Shown: piece by piece, positions 30,792-60,942 of the stretch | How the letters are laid out: each line of letters begins with the position of its first letter | Numbering within the stretch: the first letter of the stretch is position 1 | Source of the DNA: Aequorivita antarctica | GTDB taxonomy: Bacteria > Bacteroidota > Bacteroidia > Flavobacteriales > Flavobacteriaceae | Direction of reading: 5' to 3' | Assembly: GCF_007997155.1 (NCBI RefSeq) | Contig: NZ_VORT01000003.1 | Location: 124,001-188,000 of the forward strand | DNA length: 64,000 bases | Made by a program: the position numbers and the translations under genes | The notes under the pieces: generated by a model | What the model was told of the DNA's origin: nothing | Seen by the model: the letters and a program-made list of their open reading frames with translations, nothing else | Database searches by the model: none

Positions 30792-31616
30792 CTATTTTGA
30801 AAGTTCCGCCACTAAGGTATAAGCAGCATCCCCGTGAATACCCGTGAAATACTTGCCCCATTTTTCACCTCTTTTTTTACCTGAATCTCCAGGCCAAGCT
30901 TGGCCAATCAACTCGCCATTTTTATCGAACATCTTTTCCATATCACACAAAGAATCTACAAAAAATGCTTCAATAAATTCAGTTTTGTCGCTTCCCCATG
31001 CGTGAACATTGGGATAGTAGGCTTTTATGTATTCGTTTTTTGAAAGGACTTTAGAAAAACTCTCGGCCCGCATTTCATTAAATTCCTTTTGGGAACCGTC
31101 TTCGGGAAAGGTGAAATGCGTTTTTCTAACGTACAATACTAAATCCTTGGTGTTGTTATCTGGCAATAGTTTTGCGCCGTCAATAGGAGCATAAATTTCA
31201 TCGGAATGCATTACTGAGAAATAATCATCGCGGTTTTTAAAATAGGCATCTCTTGCTTTCTCGTCTGGCCAAGCTTGTTTTGCAAGCTCCTCAGCACGAT
31301 CGGCAGCTTTATCCATTGCTTCCCAAGACGGATAGGTCTGTACGTAAAGAACTTCAGAATTGTCCGGTGTAAAAAGGTGCGTGTAATAAGATGCCGATAA
31401 AACGTATTGGTTCTTGCTTACTACTTTTTGCAGATATTCCTTTTCCAAAGCTTTCCAATCATCCATGCTGAAATCATCTTTATCCATGTTCCAGTGCATT
31501 GTAGTAACTGATAGGTATTTAGGTCGATTCGCTTCATTTTGAGCGAACACACTAAAATTCAACAGCAACATAATTGATGCTATTGCAATAAACTTAAGGT
31601 TGGTGGTTGTTTTCAT
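30792..31616 (-). CDS. Secreted protein with an internally duplicated domain
   Basis: Exported protein of 274 residues, signal peptide MKTTTNLKFIAIASIMLLLN then FSVFAQ. The mature protein is two related halves of about 110-120 residues: K-V-V-S-K-N-Q-Y ... A-K-Q-A-W-P-D ... Y-F-S-V-M-H in the first and K-V-L-S-K-N-E-Y ... I-G-Q-A-W-P-G-D ... Y-F-T-G-I-H in the second. The pattern suggests tandem ferredoxin-like (dimeric alpha-beta barrel) folds making an intramolecular dimer. I do not recognise a named family or function. Confidence 0.72.
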   Translation of the reverse strand: MKTTTNLKFIAIASIMLLLNFSVFAQNEANRPKYLSVTTMHWNMDKDDFSMDDWKALEKEYLQKVVSKNQYVLSASYYTHLFTPDNSEVLYVQTYPSWEAMDKAADRAEELAKQAWPDEKARDAYFKNRDDYFSVMHSDEIYAPIDGAKLLPDNNTKDLVLYVRKTHFTFPEDGSQKEFNEMRAESFSKVLSKNEYIKAYYPNVHAWGSDKTEFIEAFFVDSLCDMEKMFDKNGELIGQAWPGDSGKKRGEKWGKYFTGIHGDAAYTLVAELSK

Positions 31617-31786
31617 AATCCCATAAAATTAAATTAGTATAAATATTAAAATTGATTACTAAATAAAATTTTGGGGCAAGCCGAGGAGAGTAAAAAGCTA
31701 AAATGAAGAGTTTATGAGGAATAAAACTGTTTTAAAAGTAATAAAAAAATAATTACAAACAACTGTTTTTGTGATAATTATAAAAA
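31617..31786. other. AT-rich leader, original downstream flank of the MutS-like operon
   Basis: No gene seen. It contains the promoter region of the minus-strand gene at 30792-31616 and, by the direct-repeat logic of the neighbouring element, the sequence that originally followed the stop codon of the MutS-like gene. Confidence 0.4.
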
Positions 31787-31851
31787 TCAATCTACAATCT
31801 GCATTTTCTTCAGCAGAAAGGAGGCGTTCATATTTTGGCAAATTCCAGGTT
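31787..31851. repeat. Left copy of a 65-bp direct repeat (3' end of the MutS-like gene)
   Basis: Matches 34873-34937 at 62 of 65 positions, starting exactly at the stop codon (TCA on the plus strand). Translated on the minus strand it encodes the same last 20 residues as the MutS-like protein (PGICQNMNASFLLKKMQIVD, stop); all three differences (Ser TCC/TCA, Gln CAG/CAA, Val GTA/GTG) are synonymous. Similarity ends abruptly on both sides. A TTTCT-N5-AGAAA dyad at 31805-31819 could be a recombinase core. Confidence 0.92.
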
Positions 31852-31862
31852 CTATTATAAAA

Positions 31863-31949
31863 ATGGATGAAATATTAGAAAAAAGTAACAAAGAGAATTT
31901 GTTTTCAAAATTTGTGACAAAATGTAGAAAGCTGAAAAACAAATATTAA
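31863..31949 (+). CDS. Possible 28-residue small ORF in the inserted element
   Basis: ATG at 31863 opens a frame MDEILEKSNKENLFSKFVTK then CRKLKNKY, stop TAA 31947-31949. It begins 11 bp inside the left direct repeat and precedes the large P-loop gene on the same strand. It is charged and helical, but too short to judge; it could be a leader peptide, the tail of a lost gene, or chance. Confidence 0.2.
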   Translation: MDEILEKSNKENLFSKFVTKCRKLKNKY

Positions 31950-32031
31950 CCAAAACTTTAAAAACTGGCTTTGTACATGTTAATTTGATACATTTATGTC
32001 GTAATATCTAAAGTATAACGAGATTTTATGC

Positions 32032-32050
32032 TGCTTTTTAAATAAAGCAG
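32032..32050 (+). promoter_or_regulatory. Hairpin just upstream of the P-loop/TPR gene
   Basis: CTGCTTT (32032-32038) and AAAGCAG (32044-32050) form a 7-bp stem with a 5-nt loop, ending 29 bp before the ATG at 32080. It could be an operator or a translation-control element; no function is shown. Confidence 0.35.
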
Positions 32051-32079
32051 ATTGATGATTGTTAGTAATTAATATCACT

Positions 32080-34788
32080 ATGAACTTAAACGAAATACAA
32101 GATTTTATTATTAGGAATTGGCCTATTCTAACATATATCTTCGGTGGTGGCGGTGGTTTGACTTACTTAATTACACATTTAGTAAATAGAAGAAATAAAC
32201 GAAATAAAGAAAGAAAAGATTACGATTTAAAATATTGGAAAATCATAAAACCTTCGAAAAAGATTAAAAAAACGGATTTCAATGTTCCGAGAAATAATAA
32301 ATTAATTTCGCGACCGTGCGATACTGAAATTAAAAATAAAATTTTGGATAATAAACAAAATGTTATTTTAATAGGAGGAACTGAACCAAATCTAAAATAT
32401 GGAAAATCTACACTTCTTTATACAGTTCTTAAACAAAAATCTCTAAAAGAGTATGTTGTATTTATTCCAAATCTTACCACAAAAATTATATCTGAGGATG
32501 AAATCTATTTTCCTCAAAAATGGCTAGAAACTCCAAATAGTAAGTTTATCTTACTCGTAGAAAATCTAAATAATTATAAGGATAATATGCAAAGTCTCAT
32601 TATCTATTATAATTTATTACTGAAAAAATCCAAAACCTTCTTTTTCATTATTACCTCCGATTTTGATTTTGATTTTGATTGGGGAAATGTGGAAATAAAA
32701 TTTCACAAAATTAAATTAAGCCCGATTGATAGAATAAATGAGAAAGATTCAATCATAATTACTCATTTAAAAAATGTTTTTGAGACACTTGAACCAACTC
32801 CACGTAAAATACTCTCATTTCTAAATTTATATGAGGAATTAGGTTTAAATACAAATAGTAAATTTATCTATGACATTATTCATTATGATTTACTGGATAT
32901 ATCGCAAGAAGATTTCAATAATAGGCTTTTTACATTAGAAGCAATTGATTTTATTATTTGGAAAAAAGAGGAAATAAAACTAAAAAAATCAATTGTTAAC
33001 CCTGATTTTTCTAATTATGATTTAGTTAAACCTACCCATGATATAGATATTCATTTTATAGAAAACTATTTTTCTCACAATAAAAATTTCACCGGCCTTA
33101 TTTATCTATCCAGCATATATGCAGATAGAAAGAATTTTCAAAAATCAAAAAAAACATTACTTAAAATTCTTGAATTTAACCCTCGCCATACTAAAGCTAA
33201 ATATTTATTAGGAGAAGTATTATTAAAAGAATATCAAACTAATATAACTGAAAACAAATCTTATGATATTGACCTGTTAGATGAAGCAATTGATTGGTAC
33301 GAAACAACGATTAGGGAAAATAATAATTTCTATAAATATAAATTAAGTTTGGCATTTTGTTTTATTAAAAGAGGCCAATCACCCAAAAATTCAACATTTC
33401 AAAAGCTAGATTTCTTCGAAAAAGCATTGACTAAGATTGATGAAACAAAGAGTTTAATCAATTTAGACAATTATTCATTTAATTATGCCTACGCTGTTTT
33501 TTACAAAAAGTTAAAACAACCCGAAACTTCATTATCTTATTACAAGATTGTAATGGATATTAATTATTCCAAGTTCAATTATAAGTTATTTACGGAATAT
33601 GCGGAGCTACTTTATATGATTAATAAACATAATTTTAGAAAAGACTATACTGACGAAATCGAGAAATATCTATTATTGGCAGATGAAGTGAGACCTAAAA
33701 AATATTACAAAACAAACTATGTCCTAGCAAATTTTTATAATTGGAGAAGTCAGGATTCTAGGGTTAGTAAACAAGATAAAATGAATTATAAAAAATTATC
33801 TATATATAATTTTGACTTGGCCTTTGAAAATTCAGACAATAAATATTTACAGGCTCTAAAGGGAAAAGCTAAAGTTCTAATTTCCCAAAAAAAATCGGTT
33901 GAGGCTATCGAGATTTTAAAAAATGTTGTACAAGCTAATCCTAATGATTTTTATTCTCTAAAAGCAATAGGAACAGCTTATGCTAGAAAAGAAAACGTCA
34001 AAAAAGCGATATCCTATTATTTAAAAGCAATCGACAAAAGCATTTCAATGAGTTATATTAAAACCATGGAAGAAATCGAGAAATCTTTTTATCCAAAACT
34101 TTTTAAAGAACTTCAAAATTTATCGAATTATAATGAATTTATCGAATTACTTGAATCGGCCAAAAAAGAATCTATTCATATACTTGCAAAACGATTTATT
34201 GAAGATGAAATATATTTTACTCATATAGCCCAAATAAAAAATGACATAGATGAGATTACTGAACCTAATGACGCCATAGAGAATAGACTTAATTCTATAA
34301 GAAGCATGGCCGTTAGAGATTTTAAAAATAAAACTTTAGCAGTATATTTTATACGATTAGGAGATTTGGAAAAAAATAAAAAGAATAAAGTAGATTATTA
34401 TAAAAAAGCCGAAAATATTCTGTTGAATAGTTTCCGAACTCCAAATAAGAAACCACATTCTTATTATAAACATATGATAGTTATTTCAAGTAAAATATCT
34501 TTAATTGAAGAAACAGGAAATTACATTGAAATTATTAAAAAATTTGAGAAACAAATTGAATATTCCGACAATAGTTATGCGGAAATTCATTTCGAATTTG
34601 CCAAATATTTAGATTCTCTACTGAATATTAATTATGATGTTCAGACAACTTTAGATAAATGCATTGATCAATACTTAATAGCTCATAAAAAGTTTAGTTA
34701 TAAATCATATAATTATATTGAATTACAGTATTGTGAAAATAGATTAGACAAACTAAAATCTAATTTTAAAAATGGTTATAGATTATAG
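32080..34788 (+). CDS. Membrane-anchored P-loop NTPase with TPR repeats (candidate defence protein)
   Basis: 902 residues from the first ATG (an in-frame TTG at 32059 would add seven). An N-terminal transmembrane helix (~14-35, with a GGGGG run) is followed by a basic stretch. A P-loop-like GGTEPNLKYGKST lies at ~99-111: GKST is intact but the glycine normally five residues before GK is displaced. FILLVEN resembles Walker B and FFFIITSD a sensor-1 strand. A helical region follows, then TPR-like repeats from about 330 to the end (for example SVEAIEILKNVVQANPN). This layout resembles STAND NTPases, in which TPRs sense and an N-terminal module effects; here the effector would be the membrane helix. 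The gene is alone in its element and far more AT-rich than its neighbours. No exact family recognised. Confidence 0.75.
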   Translation: MNLNEIQDFIIRNWPILTYIFGGGGGLTYLITHLVNRRNKRNKERKDYDLKYWKIIKPSKKIKKTDFNVPRNNKLISRPCDTEIKNKILDNKQNVILIGGTEPNLKYGKSTLLYTVLKQKSLKEYVVFIPNLTTKIISEDEIYFPQKWLETPNSKFILLVENLNNYKDNMQSLIIYYNLLLKKSKTFFFIITSDFDFDFDWGNVEIKFHKIKLSPIDRINEKDSIIITHLKNVFETLEPTPRKILSFLNLYEELGLNTNSKFIYDIIHYDLLDISQEDFNNRLFTLEAIDFIIWKKEEIKLKKSIVNPDFSNYDLVKPTHDIDIHFIENYFSHNKNFTGLIYLSSIYADRKNFQKSKKTLLKILEFNPRHTKAKYLLGEVLLKEYQTNITENKSYDIDLLDEAIDWYETTIRENNNFYKYKLSLAFCFIKRGQSPKNSTFQKLDFFEKALTKIDETKSLINLDNYSFNYAYAVFYKKLKQPETSLSYYKIVMDINYSKFNYKLFTEYAELLYMINKHNFRKDYTDEIEKYLLLADEVRPKKYYKTNYVLANFYNWRSQDSRVSKQDKMNYKKLSIYNFDLAFENSDNKYLQALKGKAKVLISQKKSVEAIEILKNVVQANPNDFYSLKAIGTAYARKENVKKAISYYLKAIDKSISMSYIKTMEEIEKSFYPKLFKELQNLSNYNEFIELLESAKKESIHILAKRFIEDEIYFTHIAQIKNDIDEITEPNDAIENRLNSIRSMAVRDFKNKTLAVYFIRLGDLEKNKKNKVDYYKKAENILLNSFRTPNKKPHSYYKHMIVISSKISLIEETGNYIEIIKKFEKQIEYSDNSYAEIHFEFAKYLDSLLNINYDVQTTLDKCIDQYLIAHKKFSYKSYNYIELQYCENRLDKLKSNFKNGYRL

Positions 34789-34872
34789 TTCCTGAAGCAT
34801 TTCCTTTATCTCTCTATTAATGAATAATAACATTTTAACCTCTTAAATAAATATTAAATTCAAACAAGCGTT

Positions 34873-34937
34873 TCAATCCACAATTTGCATTTTCTTCAGC
34901 AGAAATGAGGCGTTCATATTTTGGCAAATTCCAGGTT
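34873..34937. repeat. Right copy of the 65-bp direct repeat, in the MutS-like gene
   Basis: Forms the functional last 21 codons plus stop of the MutS-like gene and matches 31787-31851 at 62 of 65 positions. It contains the same TTTCT-N5-AGAAA dyad (34891-34905). Confidence 0.92.
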
Positions 34938-36645
34938 TGAAGGTATAGTCGAAAAAGAGTTCGTCCTTTTCAATCCGTGCATCGAAGAAATAGTTTTTTA
35001 CTCCAGACAGTTCTTCTGCAGCAACGCAAAGACTTAGATCGTGCGTAGCGATAATTCCCGTGGAATTGCTAGCAACGAGTTTTTCAATAAATTTGCGGGA
35101 GCCAATGGCTTTGTCTATGCTGTTTGTTCCTTTCAAGATTTCATCGAGAATGATGAAATAACGATCGGTTTTTATTTCGTCAACAATAAATTTTAAACGT
35201 TTTAATTCACTGAAAAAGTAAGATTCATCATCAGTTAAACTATCCGTGGTCCGCATACTCGTAATGAGCTTTATTGGGCTGTATTCCGCTTTTTCTGCAC
35301 AAACCGGCAAGCCAATATTTCCCATTACAATTTGAAGTGATACGGTTCTCAGAAATGTACTTTTCCCTGCCATATTTGCTCCTGTAACAATGAAAAACTC
35401 TTCAGAATTAATCTGAAAATCATTGCGAACCATCGTTGCCTCTTTTAACAGCGGATGCCCAGCACCTTTCACTTTTAGAACGGGAACTTCATCGTTTATT
35501 TTTGGAAAAACATAATTGGGATGATTAAAACTGAAATTCCCCAAACTGTTGTAAGTATCAAAAAAAGTAATTGCATTGAACCAGACGGGAACGCTTTCTT
35601 TATGGGCTTTAATCCATCGTTCAATGTTATAGCTCTGTCTCAAATCGCGCAGCATAAAACCATTTGCGATAACACCGATGAGCATATTGCTTCGTTGGTC
35701 TAAAGCGTCCAAATGTTTGGCGAATTTCTTTAAAAGGTCTGAAGCCTTTATTTCTGAATTAACCACTAAATTTCTTTTTTCTGAAAGAAATTCTGAAGAA
35801 AAGTTCTCTTTTTCAATCTCCAGAATCAATTTATGAAACTGTTCAAAAGTGCTTTGAATTTTTGAAGTGTCTGAGGAAAGATCATTTACTTTTTTCAAAT
35901 AACGTCCCGAAATGGCAAGCCCTAAAAAGAACCATCCCCCGATTGCATAACCTGATACTAAATCGAGATAATTCAACACTATCAAACCAACGGAAATGAC
36001 TGAAAAAACTAATGAAACTGGCTTAATCCATTGGGGAACGAAGGTTTTATAATTTTTCAGCCAATCGGTAACCTCAGCTGCGGAAACTTCTGTTTTTACC
36101 AAAGAAGCAATAGCTGAAAACTGTTGACGCCATTTGGGCATTTCAGACAATTCGTTTATTGCTTCTTGCTTTTTTGGAATAGCATCGATTTCATTTTCAG
36201 TGAAAAGTTTCGCCAAAAAATCAGCTCCACTTTCCAAGGCAGTCCTATTTAAATATTGAAAAAAAGAACCACGTCCAAAAAGATCAATGTCCTGACTGTA
36301 GAAATGGAGCGGATTTTTATATTTTTCACCAGAAGGCAAATGATGAAAAACACGGTTCATCACGTCAAGTTCAGTTTCATTTTGCTCAATCAACTTCCTT
36401 TTCAAATCTCGCTCGTATTGCAGGCCGCTATGCTTTGAAACCAAATAAATGAATGCCGCTATTGCCAGCGCGATAATAGCAATTACAATTTTCGCGTTTC
36501 CAAAGAAAAAATAAACCCCAGCACAAGCAAGCAAAAAAACAACGAGCCTAATCGTACTCGAAACCACGAGTTTGCGTTTTATTTTTTGAAGTTCCTCGGA
36601 GTGGATTTCAATCTGTAATTTGTAAAAGTTTGACGAATTCTTCAT
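34873..36645 (-). CDS. Membrane-associated MutS-family ATPase
   Basis: Protein of 590 residues with a MutS domain V ATPase at the C-terminus: GANMAGKST (422-430, the MutS Walker A form) followed by FLRTVSLQIV, DDESYFFSELKR, FIILDEILKGTNS (Walker B) and ATHD. The N-terminus carries two hydrophobic helices (~32-50, 53-70) and another pair near 209-247, unlike canonical MutS. The mismatch-recognition domain is absent, so a role other than classical mismatch repair is likely; it belongs to the MutS-related family common in Bacteroidota. Last gene of a compact minus-strand operon, 17 bp after the MmcQ gene. Its 3' end is the insertion site of the element at 31787-34937. Confidence 0.85.
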   Translation of the reverse strand: MKNSSNFYKLQIEIHSEELQKIKRKLVVSSTIRLVVFLLACAGVYFFFGNAKIVIAIIALAIAAFIYLVSKHSGLQYERDLKRKLIEQNETELDVMNRVFHHLPSGEKYKNPLHFYSQDIDLFGRGSFFQYLNRTALESGADFLAKLFTENEIDAIPKKQEAINELSEMPKWRQQFSAIASLVKTEVSAAEVTDWLKNYKTFVPQWIKPVSLVFSVISVGLIVLNYLDLVSGYAIGGWFFLGLAISGRYLKKVNDLSSDTSKIQSTFEQFHKLILEIEKENFSSEFLSEKRNLVVNSEIKASDLLKKFAKHLDALDQRSNMLIGVIANGFMLRDLRQSYNIERWIKAHKESVPVWFNAITFFDTYNSLGNFSFNHPNYVFPKINDEVPVLKVKGAGHPLLKEATMVRNDFQINSEEFFIVTGANMAGKSTFLRTVSLQIVMGNIGLPVCAEKAEYSPIKLITSMRTTDSLTDDESYFFSELKRLKFIVDEIKTDRYFIILDEILKGTNSIDKAIGSRKFIEKLVASNSTGIIATHDLSLCVAAEELSGVKNYFFDARIEKDELFFDYTFKPGICQNMNASFLLKKMQIVD

Positions 36646-50252: not shown

Positions 50253-50361
50253 CAATCATTATATTTTGATTTATCTTCATATATCCATATCCCTTGTAAT
50301 ACGGGAGAACTATAATATATATTTTCTTATTTGATGTTAATTTACGTCATTTTATTTACAT

Positions 50362-50382
50362 TTACCGCACGGTTACCGCACG
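50362..50382. repeat. Tandem 10-bp direct repeat upstream of the integrase
   Basis: TTACCGCACG at 50362-50371 and 50373-50382, one base apart, lying between the putative attachment site and the integrase ATG (50397). The 11-bp period is one helical turn, fitting a protein-binding site, either integrase arm sites or an operator. Confidence 0.55.
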
Positions 50383-50396
50383 ATAAATTAATTAAT

Positions 50397-51632
50397 ATGT
50401 ACAACTACGTCTTCAATATCAATACTAACTCAACTAAAACTGGCAAGGATATTCCTTTAAAAATTAGATATTATGAGGATGCGAAAAAGAGAGTTCAAAT
50501 TGATACGGGAATAAAAATTGCCAAAAGACACTGGAGTGAGTCTAAGAAGAGACTAAAGAATTCTGCTGAAATTCCATTTGAATATGCAGAATTTGAAAGG
50601 TTAGAATCTTTGGCCAATCAAATCATTGACCATTACAAGAAGAAAAAACTTCCTCTTACTTGCAAAAAATTTAAGAATCATTTTATAAATGAAAATTTAA
50701 TTGAAGTAAATGATTCCGTGGAAGGTGTTTATGAAGAGTTAGAAAAGTTCATAGAAAAAAAGAAGTCTGAAGTAGTTCCAGATGTAATCAAAGATTATCA
50801 TACATTAAAAAAACACCTTGAAACCTATGAGACCGCTGAAGAAACCACATTAACATTCAAATCTTTCAATTATGATTTTTACCATAGTTGGATAAAATTC
50901 CTTGCTTTTAAATACAAAAGAAGAGACAAAAAGATTGGCCTTAAGAATAATAGTATTGGCAAATCAATTAAAAATCTTAAAGCATTTTTAAACTATTGTA
51001 TTCAGTCGGAAAAAATCGAGCCAATTGACCTTACAGCATATAAAGGGATTCAGGACGAGGTAGACCACATATACTTGAAGCAAGAAGAGATAGACAAAAT
51101 TGCAAAGGTCGATTGTAAAGGAGATGAAGAATTGCAGAAGGTGCAGGACTTTTTTATAATTGGATGTTATACAGGACTACGTTTCTCTGATATTGCTAGA
51201 ATCAAACCTGATTATATAAAAGACGACTTCTTACACTTGATACAAAAAAAGACTTCTGGAAGAGTTATAATACCTCTTCGCCCTCCTGTAATAGAAGCAC
51301 TTAAGAAATACGATTATCATTCACCAGATGTATCCAGCTTTGTTTTTAATAAAAGGATAAAAGAACTTGGGGAAGAAGCTAAACTAAATGACTCTGTAGA
51401 ATTAGAGCACAAAAGAGGAGCAACTAAAGATGTAAAAACATTTAAGAAGTATCAGCTCATAAGCTCACATACCTGTAGACGTTCATTTTGTACAAATGCT
51501 TACTTCGATGATATTGATGTTCAGCTTATAATGAAGGCTTCGGGACACAAAACAGAAAAAGCTTTTAGGAGATACTTAAAATTGTCCAATTTAGAAGCTG
51601 CTGAAAAACTTAAGCAAGCTTGGGGAATGTGA
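50397..51632 (+). CDS. Tyrosine recombinase/integrase
   Basis: 411 residues from ATG 50397; in-frame upstream starts (TTG 50331) would add 22 residues that run through the tandem repeats and lack conservation. Domains: N-terminal arm-binding (MYNYVFNINTNSTKTGKDIP), SAM-like core-binding (~125-215) and C-terminal catalytic. Catalytic residues Arg262 (YTGLRFSD), Lys in IQKKTSG, His358 and Arg361 (SHTCRRS), His384 (SGHKTEK) and nucleophile Tyr393 (FRRYLKLS) are all present, so it should be active. It is beside a tRNA 3'-end remnant and presumably drives integration of the island. Confidence 0.93.
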   Translation: MYNYVFNINTNSTKTGKDIPLKIRYYEDAKKRVQIDTGIKIAKRHWSESKKRLKNSAEIPFEYAEFERLESLANQIIDHYKKKKLPLTCKKFKNHFINENLIEVNDSVEGVYEELEKFIEKKKSEVVPDVIKDYHTLKKHLETYETAEETTLTFKSFNYDFYHSWIKFLAFKYKRRDKKIGLKNNSIGKSIKNLKAFLNYCIQSEKIEPIDLTAYKGIQDEVDHIYLKQEEIDKIAKVDCKGDEELQKVQDFFIIGCYTGLRFSDIARIKPDYIKDDFLHLIQKKTSGRVIIPLRPPVIEALKKYDYHSPDVSSFVFNKRIKELGEEAKLNDSVELEHKRGATKDVKTFKKYQLISSHTCRRSFCTNAYFDDIDVQLIMKASGHKTEKAFRRYLKLSNLEAAEKLKQAWGM

Positions 51633-52204
51633 ATAAAATTTCCTCCATAATAAAACCTGGTTATTTAGAGCTACTAGAAAATAAGCTAACTGGAAGGATT
51701 CTTGACGGGGGGTACTTAAAAAAACGGATTCTTAATTTTGCATACCCTGACGGGAGGTATAACCCCAATCTCTCAAATAATTTTTTATTTCACAATTTAC
51801 CCCACTTGAAGGCTATACACGGGTAAAATTAGCGATATCACCAAATCCTTTTTATGCCCTATTTAGCCTCCTAAGGCAAAACACGGGTTATAAGCCCCAT
51901 TTCAGGAAATTCTAGATAAAAAATAAAAACCCTGCTTTTCCCACTTGGGTACTATAGGCGCATAAGGAATGGATAAGCCTCCCTTTAATAATGTTACGTA
52001 AGTTAGGTTAATATAGGCGTTATTGGGGAGGGGGACTTACAGATTGCCTCTCTGGAATATCTTTTCATATAAATCATAATTCAGTAGAGCGGGATTGACG
52101 CAAGAACCTTTAGGCTTATAACTGATTTTTAATTTGTAAAATTATTTTTGATTAAGTACTGATTCCGCTATTGTGTTTATACTCGTGTTATGCACAGGTT
52201 TTTC
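51633..52204. other. Non-coding stretch with several short direct repeats
   Basis: No gene supported. Repeats seen: GGATTCTT at 51697 and 51726; GACGGG(G/A)GGTA at 51704-51714 and 51749-51759; GGCnAnACACGGGT at 51811-51824 and 51875-51888; TATAGGCG at 51953-51960 and 52012-52019. The pattern of imperfect repeats spaced by ~45-65 bp suggests protein-binding sites (recombination, replication or transfer origin) or a decayed repeat array. The last part holds a cassette-type motif (52165-52197). Confidence 0.5.
52165..52197. repeat. attC-like half-site after the lipoprotein gene
   Basis: On the minus strand it reads CTGTGCATAAC followed by ACGAGTATAAACACAATAGCGG. The same arrangement, [core]AAC-AC...GTA...AA-CGCAATTACGG, follows the next gene of the array (see 55072-55207), suggesting a related recombination site. 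The opposite arm is not evident. Confidence 0.35.
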
Positions 52205-53041
52205 TCACGCTTTAATTAGACTCTCTATTTTTTCGCAAGGATTTTGATTTGGTTTAGGCATTACCTCTAAAATGTCAACAGACCAATCGAAATTTTCTTC
52301 TCTGATTTTTTCTCCCAAATATGTGCCTTTTAATCCTTCGATAATCATTTCTCCAACATCGCCCTCATTAATGGAAATTTCACTATCCAAAGTTTTCATA
52401 TAAATCATTGCATTATCAGATTTGCGTGATATAGTAATGCGATATTTTATATTCTCTATTTTGTATGGGGTTAAATTATAAAGTCGCAACGCAACAAAAT
52501 CAAATCTATCTCTATCATAATTATTCCACATTAACTCCTTTTTTCTTAACATTGTTGGATTATAAGGTTTGGATTTAAAATCAGAACATTCATTTGATAT
52601 ATTTTCAAAGTAGAAAGCCATTAATGAGTTTGCATCTTTGTTTTTATCGTTGTAAGTAGGAAATCGTAATCTATAAATATTTCCATTTGCTTTCACGAAA
52701 ATTATGAATGACCCATTGTCAATAATTTGACCACCATTTAAAGCGTCTGAAAAATCGTACTTAAGAAATTCGAGTTGTGAATTGTCAAGTGTTTTGTACG
52801 CTTGCTTAAAATTTGTTGAGATTACATTTTTAATTTGGGATACACCTTCTCCATAATTACTGGATTTGAATTCTGGTGATGTTAAATCAAACAAGTTCAT
52901 AAAGCTAATGGAATCTTTTTCTTTTATTGCCTTCAATGCATAATCCTTCACAGAATCAAAATTGTATTTATTCAATTCGATTTGTGAATCGCAAGCAGAA
53001 AGACTAATGATAGCGATTATTAATAAAAGTTTTATTTTCAT
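52205..53041 (-). CDS. Putative lipoprotein of unknown function
   Basis: Product of 278 residues with lipobox LSAC (Cys17) after MKIKLLLIIAIIS. The mature protein has an N-terminal helical part and a C-terminal beta-sandwich-like part (LYNLTPYKIENIKYRITISR). I do not recognise a family. It starts only 27 bp after the stop of the GHKL-nuclease gene on the same strand and directly after a cassette-end sequence (53049-53058), so it may be a further cassette or its remnant. Confidence 0.6.
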   Translation of the reverse strand: MKIKLLLIIAIISLSACDSQIELNKYNFDSVKDYALKAIKEKDSISFMNLFDLTSPEFKSSNYGEGVSQIKNVISTNFKQAYKTLDNSQLEFLKYDFSDALNGGQIIDNGSFIIFVKANGNIYRLRFPTYNDKNKDANSLMAFYFENISNECSDFKSKPYNPTMLRKKELMWNNYDRDRFDFVALRLYNLTPYKIENIKYRITISRKSDNAMIYMKTLDSEISINEGDVGEMIIEGLKGTYLGEKIREENFDWSVDILEVMPKPNQNPCEKIESLIKA

Positions 53042-53048
53042 AAATTAT

Positions 53049-53058
53049 GTTGCCAGTA
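53049..53058. repeat. Cassette-end sequence, partner of 55072-55081
   Basis: GTTGCCAGTA here is the exact inverse complement of TACTGGCAAC at 55072-55081; together they bracket the GHKL-nuclease gene. The hairpin that should follow on the lipoprotein side is missing. Confidence 0.65.
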
Positions 53059-53068
53059 GTAGTACTTA

Positions 53069-55057
53069 TTACGGAATGATAACTTCTTCCTTACTAATAG
53101 CCGTGTTGTTCTTTGATTTCTCTACGATTTCATCCGCATCTTTACTTAATTCATAAAGTTTTTCTCTTTCTAATTTTAACCTCTCATCAAGAAAGTTATG
53201 CCTTAACTCAAATTCAGTAAATATTTCACTCCAAGTTTTAACATAAATTTTTATTCTACCATCTTCATTGTAAATTAGAGATTCTTCTCCGTGAGTTTTA
53301 TTTGTCCTAATTTGTCTTTCAATAAATTGACTAGTGTTAAACTTGTTTCCAATTAAGTAAAATTTCCACGACATATTTGGAGCATTAAACTCTTGTCTTG
53401 AACTTATAACACTTAAGTACTTCATAACTTGAGAATACTCTTTTTCTCCTAATTGGATTTTCGGATGCTTTAATTCAAGAACAATATTTTCTATTTTTGC
53501 ATCTTTTTTATGTTGTCGACAAGCAAAAATATCCATTTCTCTATTTTTATCTATATGGTCTATTTTAGTGTCTTTTATCTCTCCAGTAGTTTTATAAATG
53601 TACCTTTTTAGTGCTTCCTCAAATTTAGGTTCAGCGGCTGTTACTAAATGATATTCTTCTCCGAACAGCCAATAATGATTTTCTATTAAATCTTGCAAAT
53701 GAGGTATTTCTTTAGCTCCAAGCTCTTCATTAAAAACAAGTTCTTTTAATTGATAATAAGTTTTGTATCTATCTTCAATTAGCTTAATGGTATTTATAAC
53801 TCTGTTTAGGCTTGTTTTGTGAAGGATTTTTGACAAATCCTCTCTTTCTTCAGGTTCGAGTTGAGTTACGCTTTCTATTATTTTGAAGATATTATCTCTT
53901 TCGTTAGAGTCAAGTAGTAAGTCTATAAATTGAACGAATATCTTTTTTTGTTCAAGATTTAAATTAGAAAATATCTTAGGTTGGACTTCATATAATCCAA
54001 TGATAGTGTCTTTAAGTTCTTTACTTCTAATTTGCTCCCAAGAATTATTATAAGTTGGTATAATACCGTCTAATTCGTAGTCCATTACTAACCTTTCGGC
54101 ATATGCCCTTAAATAAGGTTTTCGTTTATTTTTTAAATATTCGTTAAGTTTAGTTATTAAATATTTATACTCAACAGAAGATTTTGCTTTGGAGAATAAG
54201 CTTTTTTGATTGCTTTCTTCATTTGTGGTAAAATCGAAATGTGAAAAGAAATCACTTTCAATATAAATACTATGATAATAATAATCTCCTTTTTTATTTA
54301 GAGTAGTGAAGTCTTTATAAATTTCCTTTCCATTAGAATCTTGAAAATAAAATTTAGAATGTTCCTTGTTTAAAGATTCATTCCATTGAACATATTTGAT
54401 TTTAAATATGCTATTGTTATTCTCCAAGTTGAAAAAATCTCTATCTGCAACTAATTCTGAATAATCCAAAGGTGTTCCATTTATTAGAATTGAATATTCT
54501 TTATTTAATTCTAAAAACCAGCAAAACTCTTTCTTTATATAATTTTTTAAATCTATCTCAAATACATCTTTACTAATAAGTAAGTTGGTGAAATAAACCG
54601 TGGTTCCCGTGAAATTTACATCTGTGTTTAAAATTTTCTTTTGGTATACTTTTAAATTTTCAGCAGATATAGCTATTGTTCCACCTTTTATTCCTTGATT
54701 TTCGTAAGATGTAGTCCATTTCGCACCATTTGCAAAAGTGTAAAATGTAAGTCTACCCACTCCGTTTTTACCGTGTAAAATCGATGAATGTTTTGGAGAT
54801 TGAATTTGAATCGATTTTTCTGAATCATAGAAGTTATCAAATTTGTAGGCTAAATTTTCTAGGTCAATTCCTGTTCCATTATCTTTTACTTGAATAAAGT
54901 TGATTCGTCCTAATTCGTTGGAATCATAATTTATTTCAATTTTTGTAGCCTTAGCATCAAAACCATTCCAGATATATTCAGCAAAAGAAGAAGCAGGGTT
55001 GTAGTTCTTCAATACTCTTTTTATTCCTTTAGATGTAATTTTCGCTTCGTTCTGCAT
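53069..55057 (-). CDS. GHKL ATPase fused to a PD-(D/E)XK (Shedu-like) nuclease
   Basis: Protein of 662 residues. The N-terminal GHKL (MORC/HSP90-like) ATPase has the N-box FAEYIWNGFDAKA (Glu27, Asn31), DNGTGID (59-65) and HGKNGVGR (95-102). A middle helical region leads to ENHYWLFGEEYHLV, similar to the W-L-L/F-G start of Shedu (DUF4263) nucleases, and a nuclease core with Asp509 (REMDIFAC) and Glu528-x-Lys530 (VLELKHP). A cytosolic ATP-controlled DNase is expected; an antiviral role is inferred from the fusion and island context. The gene is bracketed by a perfect 10-bp inverted sequence, as in an integron cassette. Confidence 0.8.
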   Translation of the reverse strand: MQNEAKITSKGIKRVLKNYNPASSFAEYIWNGFDAKATKIEINYDSNELGRINFIQVKDNGTGIDLENLAYKFDNFYDSEKSIQIQSPKHSSILHGKNGVGRLTFYTFANGAKWTTSYENQGIKGGTIAISAENLKVYQKKILNTDVNFTGTTVYFTNLLISKDVFEIDLKNYIKKEFCWFLELNKEYSILINGTPLDYSELVADRDFFNLENNNSIFKIKYVQWNESLNKEHSKFYFQDSNGKEIYKDFTTLNKKGDYYYHSIYIESDFFSHFDFTTNEESNQKSLFSKAKSSVEYKYLITKLNEYLKNKRKPYLRAYAERLVMDYELDGIIPTYNNSWEQIRSKELKDTIIGLYEVQPKIFSNLNLEQKKIFVQFIDLLLDSNERDNIFKIIESVTQLEPEEREDLSKILHKTSLNRVINTIKLIEDRYKTYYQLKELVFNEELGAKEIPHLQDLIENHYWLFGEEYHLVTAAEPKFEEALKRYIYKTTGEIKDTKIDHIDKNREMDIFACRQHKKDAKIENIVLELKHPKIQLGEKEYSQVMKYLSVISSRQEFNAPNMSWKFYLIGNKFNTSQFIERQIRTNKTHGEESLIYNEDGRIKIYVKTWSEIFTEFELRHNFLDERLKLEREKLYELSKDADEIVEKSKNNTAISKEEVIIP

Positions 55058-55071
55058 TTTTGTTTTTGTAT

Positions 55072-55207
55072 TACTGGCAACGTTTAGTATAACCGCAGTT
55101 ACGGATAAATATACGAGGTTTTTCGGTTTAGCATTGACGTTAGCAATTAGGCGTGGATTCGGACGCAGTCGAATCCGCCGTAATTGCGGTTCTACAGTGT
55201 TGGTAGC
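55072..55207. repeat. attC-like recombination site between two cassette genes
   Basis: Starts TACTGGCAAC (55072-55081) and ends GTTGGTAGC (55199-55207). Inside, AACCGCAGTTACGG (55091-55104) pairs with CCGTAATTGCGGTT (55178-55191), 13 of 14 bp, and GGATTCG/CGAATCC (55155-55161, 55170-55176) forms an inner hairpin. The outer ends are not complementary to each other beyond CAAC/GTTG, but each is exactly complementary to the far end of its adjacent gene unit, the rule for integron cassettes. Confidence 0.6.
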
Positions 55208-55212
55208 AGTTT

Positions 55213-55995
55213 TTAAATTCCGTTTGGAAAATATTCTTTTAGATAAACCTTTGCTTCCTCATAATCTAATTCGGATGCTTTTTTCATATAATAATACTCT
55301 AATTTATTTTCACGTAATTTTCCATATTCAAAACCCAAACCATAGTTTATTTTTGGATTATTTGGCTCTAATTTCAATGCTTTCTTTATTAATTCAATTG
55401 CTTCATCATTCAAGCCACAGGATGATTTAAAAATCCCGTAGTTAAAGTATAATTCAGGAAATTCAATATTGTTAATTAGTTTTAAATAACATTTTTCCGC
55501 TTCAGCTTGGAACTCAATTAACTTGAATTTTTCAGCATCTGTTAACTCTTTTTCTTGCTCAATTAATTTATAAGACTTATTGGCAAAATCATTAGCAATT
55601 TCGTATAAATTAGTGTTCTTCACTTTTACACGTATTTCAAGATGAAAAGGTATCGGATTTCCAATAAAATAATCTGTATGACCATTCGAGTAATCTATAA
55701 CTATATCTAAAACTTCAACTGAAATATCTGATATTCGATATTGTTTATTCTCGTAATTAAATATAGATTCAATTTTTAATGTTGTATTTCCTAAAATAGA
55801 AGATATTTTCTTGTAATCCGAAGTTTCAAATATTGCTTTTTCACCTTCATCTTTAAAAACAAATCGAGGATAAATAAGGGCATCTTTATATTCAATATCA
55901 TTTATCGAAGGAAAGTCAGGTAAGTTAATTCCCATAAAAGAGTTAACCTTTTTTGGTCTTAAATTTTTATAAATATCTTTCTTAAATAAACTCAT
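55213..55995 (-). CDS. Cytosolic protein with a C-terminal TPR module
   Basis: Product of 260 residues without signal peptide. The N-terminal ~130 residues form an unrecognised beta-rich domain (PRFVFKDEGEKAIFET, YENKQYRISDISVEVLDI). The C-terminal ~110 carry TPR-like repeats, clearest in LYFNYGIFKSSCGLNDEAIE and LIKKALKLEPNNPKINYGLG. The gene is bracketed by the inverted pair GTTGGTAGC (55199-55207) and GCTACCAAC (56017-56025). Function unknown; a single-gene cassette product. Confidence 0.65.
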   Translation of the reverse strand: MSLFKKDIYKNLRPKKVNSFMGINLPDFPSINDIEYKDALIYPRFVFKDEGEKAIFETSDYKKISSILGNTTLKIESIFNYENKQYRISDISVEVLDIVIDYSNGHTDYFIGNPIPFHLEIRVKVKNTNLYEIANDFANKSYKLIEQEKELTDAEKFKLIEFQAEAEKCYLKLINNIEFPELYFNYGIFKSSCGLNDEAIELIKKALKLEPNNPKINYGLGFEYGKLRENKLEYYYMKKASELDYEEAKVYLKEYFPNGI

Positions 55996-56016
55996 TTTTA
56001 TTTTTTTTCTTGAATT

Positions 56017-56025
56017 GCTACCAAC
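56017..56025. repeat. Cassette-end sequence, partner of 55199-55207
   Basis: GCTACCAAC is the exact inverse complement of GTTGGTAGC at 55199-55207; the pair brackets the TPR gene at 55213-55995. Confidence 0.62.
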
Positions 56026-56160
56026 GTGTTATATCTACACTAAAGGTGACCTTTTTCGCATTATAAGGGATAAACACACCTTCTTGTGATTCTATCCGTT
56101 TCTGTTATTTTTACTAAAACTACAATTAATCCATCAAATATCCATCATACATATTCTTGA

Positions 56161-56853
56161 TTATAGCTTCATCCCATACATCATATTATCCAGTTCTCTC
56201 CAATTGGGGATGTGCTTCGAAAGTTCTGCCCAGAATTCTTTAGAGTGATTCTTTATTTTAGTGTGTACCAGTTCGTGGACTATTAGGTAATCTATTAGTG
56301 AGAATGGTAATTTTATAGATTCTATATTTATGGTAATGGCATTATTGGGGGAACAACTTCCCCATTGTTTTTCAAGCTTTTTAAACTGAACTTTTTCATA
56401 TTTCAAGCCTGTTTTCTTTGACCATTTTTTTAGTCTTGGTTTTATCTTTTCTAAGGCTTTCTGAGTGAAGAAATTTTCAAAGGCTTCAACTAAATTGGAT
56501 TGGCTGTTTAAACTTTTAGGAGTGAGAACTTTAAACTTTGATTCAGTGAAGTCTATTTCTATGTTTTCAATGTCATTATTGATGAATATCTCCACATAGT
56601 ACTTTCTGCCCAAATACTGAATCCTGGAACCAGTGACTATTTCATCTTCTCCTATGGACTTAACGAGCTCTAACTTATCTATTATCCACTTGGCTTTTTT
56701 GGCTATTAGTTTGTCACTTTTTTCAATGGATATGAGATTTCCTTTCAGAGTAACCCCTTTCCCTTTTTCTACAGTTATGTAATGGGATTTGAGCCCTTCC
56801 TTTTCAAGAATGGTATATTCTATCGTTTTATGTCCGTACTTAATCTCTGGCAT
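56161..56853 (-). CDS. YgjP-like (SprT/DUF45-type) metallopeptidase
   Basis: Cytosolic zinc peptidase-like protein of 230 residues. HELVH (His193, Glu194, His197) with His203 in KNHSKEFW completes the YgjP zinc site; QWGSCSPNNAITIN is the family signature. These genes habitually accompany type I restriction hsdR genes, as here, where it is the last gene of the operon (2 bp after the GIY-YIG-like gene). Its function in restriction is unsettled. Confidence 0.88.
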   Translation of the reverse strand: MPEIKYGHKTIEYTILEKEGLKSHYITVEKGKGVTLKGNLISIEKSDKLIAKKAKWIIDKLELVKSIGEDEIVTGSRIQYLGRKYYVEIFINNDIENIEIDFTESKFKVLTPKSLNSQSNLVEAFENFFTQKALEKIKPRLKKWSKKTGLKYEKVQFKKLEKQWGSCSPNNAITINIESIKLPFSLIDYLIVHELVHTKIKNHSKEFWAELSKHIPNWRELDNMMYGMKL

Positions 56854-56855
56854 TA

Positions 56856-57194
56856 TTAAAACTTATGAATATAATTTTGTGAAAGCTTAACTTCCTGTTC
56901 AATTCTTTTCATTTCTGCGCTATCGTTTAATGCTATTGTTCTATAAATTATATTCTCAATATTATTTAAAACGTATTTACGCTTTTCTTCATTATTTCTT
57001 GTTCCTTGTCCATATGGTTTTGGTAACAACGAGCTCATCCTATATGCAACATTGTTACCGCAACCAAAAAGAATAAATTCATTAGTCGCTTTATTCTTTA
57101 ATTGATATACTCCTTTTCCGTATGGGGCTATTAAAATGTCATTATCAGCTGGATTTGGAAATTCATACCATTCAGACCAGTTAAAATCTTTCAT
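56856..57194 (-). CDS. Small GIY-YIG-like protein
   Basis: Product of 112 residues. G-V-Y-Q-L-K-N followed by I-L-F-G-C-G-N-N-V-A-Y-R-M resembles the GIY and YIG strands with the N-x4-R helix of GIY-YIG nucleases, and a late IEQEV could supply the catalytic Glu. The second motif has Phe-Gly instead of Tyr-Ile-Gly. It lies 5 bp after hsdR and 2 bp before the YgjP gene, so it is co-transcribed. Nuclease activity is an inference. Confidence 0.5.
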   Translation of the reverse strand: MKDFNWSEWYEFPNPADNDILIAPYGKGVYQLKNKATNEFILFGCGNNVAYRMSSLLPKPYGQGTRNNEEKRKYVLNNIENIIYRTIALNDSAEMKRIEQEVKLSQNYIHKF

Positions 57195-57199
57195 AAATC

Positions 57200-60100
57200 C
57201 TATCCCTTATTTTTTATCAAAACATCCACCATTTCCCTAGCTTTTATTTTTGCCTCTGAACTTTCCAATTTAGCTTGTAGTAAACGTTTTATCTTGTTTT
57301 CAATGTCTTTCTTAACTCTGCCTTTATTCTGCCAATCAATAATATCTAATTCACCCTTTATAAGAGCAAATAAGCTCCTGGTAGCGTCTTCTGCTTCATT
57401 ATTGAATATAGTCTTCATTGAGTTGAAAACCGCTCTGCTACGCTCTGTATTGAATCCTTTTTCTTCTCCTTCTTTTTGCTGGCTAATTATCTCATCCTGG
57501 ATTTGGGAATAGGCCAATAATAATTGAAGCTGGGTCAGTCTTTTTTCTTCATATTGTTTCAAAAGCTCCTCTAACCTTTGTGCTAAGGGCTTGTAAAAAT
57601 CTGGGTTTTTGTCAATGCCAACTTTTATGGTGTGCTTTAAGTTGTTTCGCATCTTCAACTCTTTGGTGGCTGGAGAGGCGTTCATAATTTCCTCTTTGAA
57701 CTTTTCTTTATCTATAATAGAGATAGGTTCGTTCAAAAGACTTTCAACTCCTTCAGATTTTAAGTGGGCATCTATCATATCCTGAAGCATCTTACTTTCA
57801 TCGGGACTGATACGAAGACCATCATCATCTGGATATGCGTTTTTGGCTCTCAACTTCAATTCATTGTAGAGCTTAAAATCATCTTCATATTTCAACGCTG
57901 CCTGGTTGGGCAGGATTAGGTTAATGGATTTGTTGAAATCTTTCAGTAAGGTTTTAAACTCATCCCTTCTGTCCAAAGGTTCAATATACAAAAGAGCTTT
58001 ATCAATATATTTCTCCCTGTCATACTTTCTATCAACTTTTAAGGGTTTGAAAAACTCTACCAGCTTATTGTGATTCAACTCTAGGATTGGCAGCTCTTCA
58101 TTTATATTTTTAAGAATATCATCTGGTCTAAGGTCGCCTGAAAATATTTCAAGTGCCTGAATCAGATAGTCCGTGATACCGTTGTAATCAATAATAAATC
58201 CTGCATTCTTTCCTTGTCTGCTTCTGTTTACCCTTGCAATGGCTTGCAATAGATTGTGTTCCTTTAAAGGTTTGTCTAGATAGAGGCAGGAGGCAATGGG
58301 TGCATCCCAACCTGTAAGCAACATATCTGAAACTATGATAAAGGCAGTATTGTCATATTTTTTCTTCTTGCCAGATTTATCTCTTTCTCTCTCATCTCCA
58401 AAAGGAAGTTTAAAATCATCAGTAACTGTTTTTACCATTTCAGGGGGAACTACCAGAATGGGTTTTTGGTCATTGGGATTGTTTTTGTTCCACTCCAATG
58501 TTTTGAAATACTCCTTTGCGATGGCATCGCCTTTTGGAGAACCCATACTGATGACCACTTTGGAATCAAAATTATGATAGCCTTGTTCTTTTAATTTCAA
58601 GAGGGCTTCTTGATATTTTATTGCTGCTGGTCTGCCACTGCAAACTATCATTGCCTTGTGCTTATCAGGATAGATTTTATCTCTGTAATGGTCTACAATG
58701 TGTTTGCTTATATCCCGAATCCGCTCTTTAGAAAGTTGATATTTTTGAAGAGCTTTCCTTTTTAAAAGGTCTTTCTTTTCTTCCGATTCATCTTTGAACT
58801 TTTCTTCAAACTCCTTATCTAGTTCCTCTTTTTTGATATCCAGTTTGGCAATTCCTTCATCATAGAGCAGTTCTACAGTGGCACCATCTGCAACAGATTC
58901 TTTGATAGTATAAACATCAATATAATCTCCTCCATAAAACTCTCCTAAAGTGGATTTGTCTTCTTTGGAAATAGGAGTGCCCGTAAACGCTATAAACTTT
59001 GCATTGGGTAAAACCGAACGCATAAAAGCTGCTAGGAATCCATAATGGCTGCGGTGGGCTTCATCCACCATAACATAGAGGTTTTCTTTGTTTGAAAGTG
59101 CAGCGAGGTCTATTTCTGTGCGCTCAATTTCTATCCATTTACCCTCCTGTAACTCCTTAGTGATTTTGATGAGTTTATTATCTAAAATCTTTTTTTCGAT
59201 TTGGATATTGCCTTTTTCCTCAATTTCAGTTTGGTCTTCTTGGGAAGTAGATTCCCTATCGCTTTCCTGGAATTTCTGAATTGTGGTTGTTATTATAGAA
59301 CCATAATCATTGCCTAATAATTTTTGTAAATGTGCTACCGAGGATGCCTGTTTTACATTTTTAAAACCTACGTGTTGTAAGGTTGTTGTAATCTGCCTAT
59401 CCAAATCCTTACGGTCAGTCATCACCAAAATGGTGGGATTGTTGAAACCATATTCTGGAGCTTGCAGTTTTCTGGCAATGTATGCCATAGTCAAAGACTT
59501 CCCACTTCCTTGGGTGTGCCAAACAACGCCACCTTCATCTCCTTGCAAACGCTTAATTGTTTTATTGGTTGCTCTTAATTGCTGATGTCTTGGAAGTTTT
59601 TTAATGGTTCTTCCTTCTTCCATTTCAAATAGGATAAAATGACGGATTAAGTCCAAAATTCTTTCTTTTCTGAAAAGAGCATACAAAAGCACATCCTGTT
59701 TGGAAGGAGAATCCCCTAAAAAACTAAGGTCTTCATCTTTGCCTGGTCTGTATAGGAAATAAAATTGTTGGGGCGCACCAATGGCACCATATCTTCCTCC
59801 ATCCTTCCAAATTCCCAAACAGAATTGGTTGAAATGGAAGAGTTTTTCTGAGTTTTCTTGGTAATATTTAATATCATTATAAGCAGTGTCCCAGGCATTG
59901 GTAGCTATTGGAGATTTGCATTCAATAATTGCAATGGGCAGCCCATTTATATAGACTACTAAATCTGGAATTGAGTTTTGGTATCTGCCGTGGTATCTTA
60001 TCTGGTTGACAATTAAATAATCGTTGTTGTCAGGGTTTTTGTAATCTATGAAATGGATTGGGTGAAAGTCTTCCTTCCCATCTATTACCTGCTTCACCGT

Positions 60101-60379
60101 CTGAGCTCCACCTCTGATTAAATGCCATATCTTTTCATTGATTTCCATAAGGGAAGTTCCCGTTACGGATGTGATAAGGCCATAGGCTTTATTTAGGTTA
60201 TTGTCATTTATCCAGGGGTTTATTCTTTTAATGGCAGCGAGCAACCTGTCCTTTAGAATGGTTTCAGTAATATCTGTACGTTCATCCTGAGTAGCTCCAT
60301 TGATATATTGATATCCCATTTTCTGAAACAGCTTAATGGCTGGTAGTTCACTTTGGATGTATTCTGGAGTGTTACTCAT
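57200..60379 (-). CDS. hsdR: Type I restriction endonuclease, motor/nuclease subunit R
   Basis: 1059 residues, normal for HsdR. Nuclease domain: P138-D139 and E153-x-K155 (IIECKSP), the PD-(D/E)XK site that cleaves DNA after translocation. SF2 motor: Walker A GSGKS (291-295) in VVWHTQGSGKS, DEAH-box VMVDEAHRSHYG, FTGTPIS, and motif VI region AIARVNRSRQG. The C-terminal helical domain would bind HsdM. The start overlaps the upstream gene by 8 bp. hsdM and hsdS are not in the window; without them no methylation or sequence specificity can be provided locally. Confidence 0.93.
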   Translation of the reverse strand: MSNTPEYIQSELPAIKLFQKMGYQYINGATQDERTDITETILKDRLLAAIKRINPWINDNNLNKAYGLITSVTGTSLMEINEKIWHLIRGGAQTVKQVIDGKEDFHPIHFIDYKNPDNNDYLIVNQIRYHGRYQNSIPDLVVYINGLPIAIIECKSPIATNAWDTAYNDIKYYQENSEKLFHFNQFCLGIWKDGGRYGAIGAPQQFYFLYRPGKDEDLSFLGDSPSKQDVLLYALFRKERILDLIRHFILFEMEEGRTIKKLPRHQQLRATNKTIKRLQGDEGGVVWHTQGSGKSLTMAYIARKLQAPEYGFNNPTILVMTDRKDLDRQITTTLQHVGFKNVKQASSVAHLQKLLGNDYGSIITTTIQKFQESDRESTSQEDQTEIEEKGNIQIEKKILDNKLIKITKELQEGKWIEIERTEIDLAALSNKENLYVMVDEAHRSHYGFLAAFMRSVLPNAKFIAFTGTPISKEDKSTLGEFYGGDYIDVYTIKESVADGATVELLYDEGIAKLDIKKEELDKEFEEKFKDESEEKKDLLKRKALQKYQLSKERIRDISKHIVDHYRDKIYPDKHKAMIVCSGRPAAIKYQEALLKLKEQGYHNFDSKVVISMGSPKGDAIAKEYFKTLEWNKNNPNDQKPILVVPPEMVKTVTDDFKLPFGDERERDKSGKKKKYDNTAFIIVSDMLLTGWDAPIASCLYLDKPLKEHNLLQAIARVNRSRQGKNAGFIIDYNGITDYLIQALEIFSGDLRPDDILKNINEELPILELNHNKLVEFFKPLKVDRKYDREKYIDKALLYIEPLDRRDEFKTLLKDFNKSINLILPNQAALKYEDDFKLYNELKLRAKNAYPDDDGLRISPDESKMLQDMIDAHLKSEGVESLLNEPISIIDKEKFKEEIMNASPATKELKMRNNLKHTIKVGIDKNPDFYKPLAQRLEELLKQYEEKRLTQLQLLLAYSQIQDEIISQQKEGEEKGFNTERSRAVFNSMKTIFNNEAEDATRSLFALIKGELDIIDWQNKGRVKKDIENKIKRLLQAKLESSEAKIKAREMVDVLIKNKG

Positions 60380-60941: not shown

Positions 60942-60942
60942 C

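Follow-up and report, generated by a model that had tools for sequence, protein, structure and literature searches.

A lineage-specific insertion between two copies of a MutS-like gene end in Aequorivita antarctica

A 3.0-kb insertion at the 3' end of a MutS-like gene

We analysed a stretch of 64,000 nucleotides of the Aequorivita antarctica genome (assembly GCF_007997155.1, contig NZ_VORT01000003.1, positions 124,001 to 188,000; genome G000 of our set), hereafter the window. In it, the 3' end of a gene for a MutS-like protein is present twice, and a segment of 3.0 kb with one large gene separates the intact gene from the native region behind it. The features of the locus, with the basis of each assignment, are:

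34873..36645, minus strand: MutS-like gene, intact, 590 amino acids (aa), MutS domain V ATPase (Pfam, translation of the open reading frame, ORF)
34873..34937, minus strand: gene-attached copy of a 65-bp repeat, consisting of the last MutS-like codons and TGA (sequence comparison)
31852..34872, no strand: inserted segment, 3,021 bp, 25.1% GC (sequence comparison)
32080..34788, plus strand: cargo gene, 902 aa (ORF; likely ATG at 32080, by eye)
31863..31949, plus strand: candidate feature inside the insert (read by eye)
31787..31851, minus strand: displaced copy of the 65-bp repeat with 3 synonymous differences, followed by the native intergenic region (sequence comparison)
31617..31786, no strand: native intergenic region, from the MutS-like stop codon to the next gene, kept in the empty sites of Aequorivita (comparison with relatives)
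30792..31616, minus strand: native downstream neighbour gene, 274 aa (synteny)

The two copies of the direct repeat (31787-31851 and 34873-34937) are identical at 62 of 65 positions (E ~1.5e-19 when the window was compared with itself), and both end at the stop codon of the MutS-like gene; as this gene lies on the minus strand, the copy at 34873 starts with the reverse complement of its TGA. All three differences are synonymous and fall on third codon positions of the MutS-like gene. The segment between the copies has 25.1% GC, compared with 35.9% in the rest of the window, and its single long ORF is directed towards the MutS-like gene. A search of the genome with the 65-bp site gave no second locus at E <= 0.001. 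The MutS-like protein itself scores under the NCBIfam cut-offs for both MutS1 and MutS2. A sequence-only reading of the window had described the repeat at the stop codon, about 3.0 kb of AT-rich DNA with one large gene, and no integrase inside; all of this holds, and Pfam shows no recombinase in the insert.

The same reading had expected single-copy empty sites in relatives rather than the gene with both repeats throughout. Indeed, the MutS-like gene end was single-copy in all 27 other Aequorivita genomes searched (up to 6 candidate matches were scored per genome), and a second copy was also absent from the downstream stretches (0.1-10 kb) of the loci L003-L017. The left 259 bp of the insert occurred in none of these 27 congeners; among the 99 relatives searched in all, they gave, beyond the genome of the window, two chance-level matches in other families. 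We conclude that the 3.0-kb segment is a genuine insertion, specific to this lineage, at a protein gene's 3' end, because the congeners hold the site once and none of them has the insert end. Partial second matches to the 65 bp in G010 and G033 lay on contigs other than that of the gene-end match and were judged to be chance or local similarity; the one in G010 was weak and 33 bp long.

Beyond the native intergenic region, the 274-aa gene is followed by a YdjM-family gene. Of the 15 named Aequorivita-type loci (L003-L017), 13 have the 274-aa gene next behind the MutS-like gene; it is degenerate in L007, and the contig of L010 stops before its place. Several other genomes are missing it and have the YdjM gene directly next. 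A Bacteroidota promoter-like motif, taken from general knowledge, occurred 0 times in the insert and 8 times in the window, where 8.9 were expected. As a separate observation, five Aequorivita-type loci (L008, L013, L015, L016 and L017) have a gap of ~3 kb between the YdjM and DUF4440 genes, which lies close to the MutS-like gene though away from its end.

Occupied sites at the same gene end and behind other genes

We searched the 25-aa C-terminal peptide of the MutS-like protein in 397 genomes of the family, 257 of which matched. A truncated second MutS-like end was found nearby in three of the 257: G000, G292 and G339. The last two represent two other genera and carry, at the same gene end, cargo unrelated to that of G000; other cargo between similar repeats had been anticipated by the sequence-only reading. 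In G292, a repeat of 143 bp (95.8% identity) flanks 1,272 bp coding for a sigma-70-type sigma factor and a 204-aa protein. In the one-contig genome G339, the repeat is 81 bp long (81.5%) and flanks 680 bp with a gene for one 190-aa protein, lipoprotein-like by eye and with no Pfam match; two of the three congeners of G339 (G054 and G482) are empty with one copy. The repeat length at the MutS-like gene is thus 65, 81 or 143 bp. Four of the seven genomes with two peptide matches were dropped, namely G323, G473 and G477, in which the second match is a second full-length gene, and G294, in which it is weak (48%) and 364 kb off.

Two side observations concern G292. The gene-side end of its insert (L110:8872-8958) contains a short repeat with at least 18 further, mostly partial, matches in the G292 genome, perhaps a family of small interspersed repeats. 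At L110:4129-5382, neighbouring genes share near-identical first 67 bp (90%, signal-peptide-like), with no longer match found; by comparison of the sequences these shared starts appear to be a 5'-end counterpart of the 3'-end scar. L145 has a partial match (34%) to the sigma factor of G292; as such factors are widespread, we did not treat it as a relative of the cargo.

The same kind of scar was sought behind other genes. In the window and 88 fetched loci (89 sequences), each of 1,300 ORF 3' ends was checked for another copy within 15 kb that was at least 40 bp long and at least 75% identical. There were five positives: the three MutS-like sites and one site each in G229 and G173. In G229, the end of a short-chain dehydrogenase (SDR) gene is duplicated over 76 bp (83%) around one 184-aa gene, and the congener G413 has the dehydrogenase end once, without an insert. 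In G173, the duplicated end belongs to a 335-aa gene, of outer-membrane type by eye and with no Pfam match; its repeat, 277 bp at 91%, flanks efflux genes and is perhaps the same kind of scar, possibly an older one. In the case of L166, the displaced copy is frameshifted by eye; it may be an older duplication and was therefore given less weight.

As a control gene we used sdhB, which we take to encode the iron-sulphur subunit of succinate dehydrogenase; its product has the Pfam domains Fer2_3 and Fer4. The C-terminus of SdhB matched in 382 of the 397 genomes, and a truncated second copy was nearby in one of them, G380, where 227 aligned bp (93% identity, 219 of them coding) flank genes for a 371-aa and a 670-aa protein. 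By a count made by eye, 31 genomes had two sdhB matches, and all of them except G380 were discarded (30 genomes): in 28 the second match is a further full-length gene that is distant or on another contig, in G336 it is a 45-aa ORF at a contig edge, and in G461 it is a 52% match on another contig.

The rate at the MutS-like gene is therefore 3/257 (2/256 if the discovery genome is left out), compared with 3/~1,595 ends of control genes, made up of sdhB (1/382) and ~1,213 other ORF ends (2/~1,213; 1,300 minus 87 MutS-like). In Fisher tests, the difference from all controls gave p = 0.038 when the discovery case was counted and 0.14 when it was omitted, and that from sdhB alone 0.31 and 0.57, respectively. 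These values compare counts obtained in differing ways, by peptide search for the MutS-like gene and by DNA self-comparison for the ORF ends, and the ORF-end set, from a mechanical ORF list, is partly redundant (L076 is the contig of L009 again) and includes L110 and L111, which were fetched because they are occupied. A preference for the MutS-like gene end is possible, but a dedicated site is not shown; since the scar is also found behind sdhB and the dehydrogenase gene, the MutS-like gene is no proven hotspot, contrary to the new integration hotspot that had been proposed from the window.

Origin of the duplicated gene end

The same scar surrounds other inserted genes and lies behind other conserved genes, which suggests an ordinary by-product of recombination rather than a new site-specific mobile element. 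In the reading that we favour with fair confidence, the insert derives from a donor fragment made of a gene end and the cargo, which integrated through homology on one side and left the gene end in duplicate. In a donor relative, the cargo would have stood immediately behind that relative's version of the conserved gene. A fragment with the short 3' coding end of that gene and the cargo would have entered the cell by some route, been trimmed and probably recircularised, and the circle would have been integrated by a single crossover of its gene-end piece with the end of the resident gene; a less likely variant would combine a homologous join on one side with an illegitimate join on the other. 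Either way, the gene would remain whole, with the cargo behind its stop codon and a truncated gene end of arbitrary length at the far side. Indeed, the observed repeats end at the stop codon or within a few bases of it, and their lengths are otherwise arbitrary. The repeat would stop there because the coding sequence is conserved between donor and recipient and the sequence behind it is not. Taken jointly with this mechanism, the 3.0 kb would fairly probably be a horizontally acquired single-gene cassette that arrived without a recombinase of its own.

For two cargoes we found arrangements that look like those of a donor. In G178 (same genus as G380) and G446, both cargo genes of G380 stand behind sdhB and a second sdhB end is absent, whereas G430 is empty behind sdhB and, in G256, different genes lie in the interval from sdhB to the MutS-like gene. 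G178, G256 and G446 had been fetched for their large distance between sdhB and the MutS-like gene, and two of these three contain the G380 cargo. Between G178 and G380, the 50 alignable bp between sdhB and the cargo are 88% identical and the cargo genes 84-85%. The two sdhB ends of G380 differ at 12 of 219 sites (5.5%), and either differs from G178 at ~13-14%; the copies are closer to each other than to G178, and the repeat therefore looks younger than the species split, barring gene conversion. The second cargo is that of G339: its congener G481 has a relative of it (43% aa identity) behind the MutS-like gene, with the repeat absent. We also noted that the cassette of the 371-aa protein and the 670-aa FG-GAP/ASPIC protein with a secretion sorting tail, present in L195 (G380), L207 (G178) and L209 (G446), occupies, in two genera, the place between sdhB and a gene for an M28 peptidase.

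The differences between the copies within a genome were compared as codons. They are synonymous at 3 of 3 sites in G000, 10 of 15 in G339 and 6 of 12 in G380, an excess over random change with P = 0.0075, 2.4e-5 and 0.028, respectively. Because of this bias, the copies in three of the five cases look like two functional alleles, neither of them resembling a decaying duplicate of the other. In G339, the gene-attached copy is 96% like that of the congener G054, and the displaced copy is foreign throughout, being no closer to the congeners than to another genus.

Several points weigh against the one-sided insertion that we favour. No donor was found for the cargo of G000, and the donor-type arrangements are limited to two other cargoes. 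Relatives of the other inserts' cargo were sought solely in the fetched loci, nearly all of which surround the MutS-like gene, and the search was therefore biased towards finding relatives near this gene. There is no synonymous bias in G292 (1/6) or G229 (4/14). The pattern in G339 requires either that the crossover fell at the extreme end of the homologous stretch or that DNA was transferred twice. In G000, the native copy is not distinguishable by species comparison: the copies differ at 3 sites and either differs from any other species compared at 4 or more, and the 65 bp discriminate weakly. The assignment of the gene-attached copy of G000 as native rested on three variable sites, and we did not rely on it. 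Finally, 3/257 at the MutS-like end against the controls leaves room for a preference if the discovery case is counted (p = 0.038).

The best-surviving alternative, which we nevertheless consider unlikely, takes the 65 bp as an attachment site at which a tyrosine recombinase encoded elsewhere integrates integrase-less mini-islands and restores the gene; the sequence-only reading had proposed this service in trans. Cis-mobilizable elements and integrase-less genomic islands are known to have attachment (att)-like repeats at the 3' end of a gene and no integrase, and the locus resembles them in all three respects: the gene is restored, a direct repeat lies at its 3' end, and the AT-rich cargo lacks an integrase. 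Unlike for such elements, we found here neither a related element with an integrase nor a site that was used again. An integrase-dependent element would also be consistent with the empty sites, with three occupied MutS-like sites of different cargo and with the excess at the MutS-like end when the discovery case is counted. The genome has 12 Phage_integrase matches, one of them within the window. However, no recombinase was found in the element, nor a related element with a recombinase at the same site, and no integrase was found in any insert examined. With the 12 own integrases as queries, no relative was detected at the 87 MutS-like downstream regions (0.1-15 kb), except the integrase gene of the window itself at 50.3 kb, nor in five sdhB loci. 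The 65 bp match at this locus alone, which means that no full site lies beside another integrase gene, although a much shorter core would be compatible with this result. The repeats differ in length, and the first and last 150 bp of five inserts have no clear common sequence (best E 0.007, AT-rich and chance-like). Moreover, the scar occurs at unrelated genes such as sdhB and the SDR gene, and relatives of the cargo exist without the repeat. Neither a constant core, apart from a possible short one, nor shared ends or target specificity were seen.

Somewhat less probable still is a true target duplication by a transposition-like or break-repair event, with both copies derived from the recipient. 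Its anatomy fits, and the G292 copies are 95.8% alike with mostly non-synonymous differences, as in a drifting duplicate; those of G229 likewise have no synonymous bias. The bias in G000, G339 and G380 argues against it, as does the displaced copy of G339, which is as distant from the congeners as from another genus. Very improbable, finally, is an insertion that arose in another species and arrived by two-sided allelic recombination in the flanking conserved genes, in which case the repeat would tell nothing about entry into G000: donor-type arrangements without the repeat exist, G339 combines a congener-like gene-attached copy with a foreign displaced one, and neighbouring genes in G000 have differing closest species, but none of the 27 congeners searched has the insert, and the G000 copies are, as far as so short a sequence discriminates, closer to each other than to any other species compared.

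The one-sided insertion that we favour has parallels in known systems. Minimal mobile elements of Neisseria are cassettes behind or between conserved genes that are exchanged by homology of the flanks. As in these elements, gene cassettes here appear exchanged between genomes without mobility genes: three different cargoes stand behind the MutS-like gene, and behind sdhB the cassette of G380, G178 and G446 alternates with the empty site of G430 and other genes in G256. In contrast, a duplicated gene end would not be expected from a two-sided exchange. PMC2649163 mentions the minimal mobile elements of Saunders and Snyder. In Helicobacter pylori, insertion with long target duplication was described by Nobusato et al. 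2000 (as cited in passages of PMC1643837, PMC4978471 and PMC3154945): a gene is inserted in a long direct repeat that is single-copy in another strain, as the flanking repeat of G000 is in its relatives. According to these passages, such insertions are often tied to restriction-modification genes, while the cargo here is mixed; a further difference is that the repeats here end at stop codons and that some copies look like two alleles.

The closest experimental parallel to a single crossover comes from conjugation in E. coli with one-sided homology, where, according to PMC3240628, the PCR product expected from a duplicated homologous end was obtained with 56 of 60 Lac-minus clones; the 14 duplications sequenced were 109-950 bp long, and the explanation given was one crossover with a circular molecule that had been shortened. 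Like this crossover and homology-facilitated illegitimate recombination, as presented there, our cases have one homologous end and a gain of foreign DNA, and duplications of the homologous end predominated in that experiment too. The differences, according to the same source, are that the E. coli case concerns a laboratory plasmid and that classical events in competent species generally delete resident DNA. A similar process has been proposed, in excerpts of PMC5361080, for immunity-gene arrays of the Vibrio type VI secretion system, in which incoming modules are anchored by a conserved stretch and older 3' parts are displaced downstream; there, effector-immunity modules enter dedicated clusters, in contrast to the unrelated genes behind conserved genes here. 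In the open-access literature, covered mostly by general searches, we found no report of such a scar in Flavobacteriaceae.

A broader reading, which we regard as doubtful, is that Flavobacteriaceae share a pool of small cassettes behind conserved genes that move from species to species with part of the 3' coding end of a host gene as their sole 'address label'. If this were true, such cassettes would parallel those of integrons but be addressed by homology and need no integrase, the end of any conserved gene could serve as a site, and the duplicated gene end would be a diagnostic scar, present at ~0.2-1.2% of the conserved gene ends examined. The case separates two lookalikes, the repeat of an attachment site and the scar of an integrase-free insertion. 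Scanning for a truncated second 3' end near an intact gene can find scar-flanked cargo and so offers a measure of how often genes enter genomes without recombinases. As donor-type arrangements were found for two cargoes, the mechanism could be tested in a laboratory strain with natural competence.

The cargo gene and a separate AT-rich stretch

As called mechanically, the cargo ORF starts at TTG 32059; its stop codon ends at 34788. The protein has a hydrophobic N-terminal segment, an atypical GGTEPNLKYGKS motif (GKS) and TPR repeats, whose matches exceed the Pfam cut-off; no recombinase is among the Pfam matches. Residues 1-340 had no match in Pfam or among PDB sequences, and a single-sequence AlphaFold model (mean pLDDT, the predicted local distance difference test score, of 42) was too poor for a structure search. 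Compared with a STAND-like NTPase, in which a P-loop domain is followed by repeats, the TPR part is present and the P-loop is limited to the atypical GGTEPNLKYGKS motif. Searches against Pfam, PADLOC, PHROGs, NCBIfam and PDB sequences gave TPR-type matches, weak matches below the cut-off, or nothing.

A full-length match was absent from the 396 other family genomes, a sample that includes only two other Aequorivita and in which 2 candidates were scored per genome; the TPR region matched in 7. Another 8 genomes of the family had matches to residues 1-337 (E 3e-4 to 9e-3); these were short, some ran across stop codons, and they were judged to be chance. Carriage by a phage or plasmid was rejected: the protein had no match in viral contigs, plasmids or phage records, the insert DNA none in phages, and viral contigs contained neither an exact match to the degenerate site pattern nor a MutS-like relative. 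In the searches made, the cargo thus appears as an orphan TPR protein, and a membrane-anchored TPR sensor ATPase would be a guess from its motifs. The defence cargo suggested earlier found no backing, since the protein matched 0 PADLOC families at E<=1 and the 'defence' label is therefore unsupported.

Clearer defence-type genes of the window lie at 53-63 kb. A tyrosine integrase gene (50331-51632) stands beside an AT-rich stretch, and the whole region (50331-62893) looks like a genuine defence island. The stretch codes for an HATPase protein (53069-55057), the type I restriction protein HsdR (57200-60379) and an NgoFVII/PLD-type restriction protein (61706-62893).

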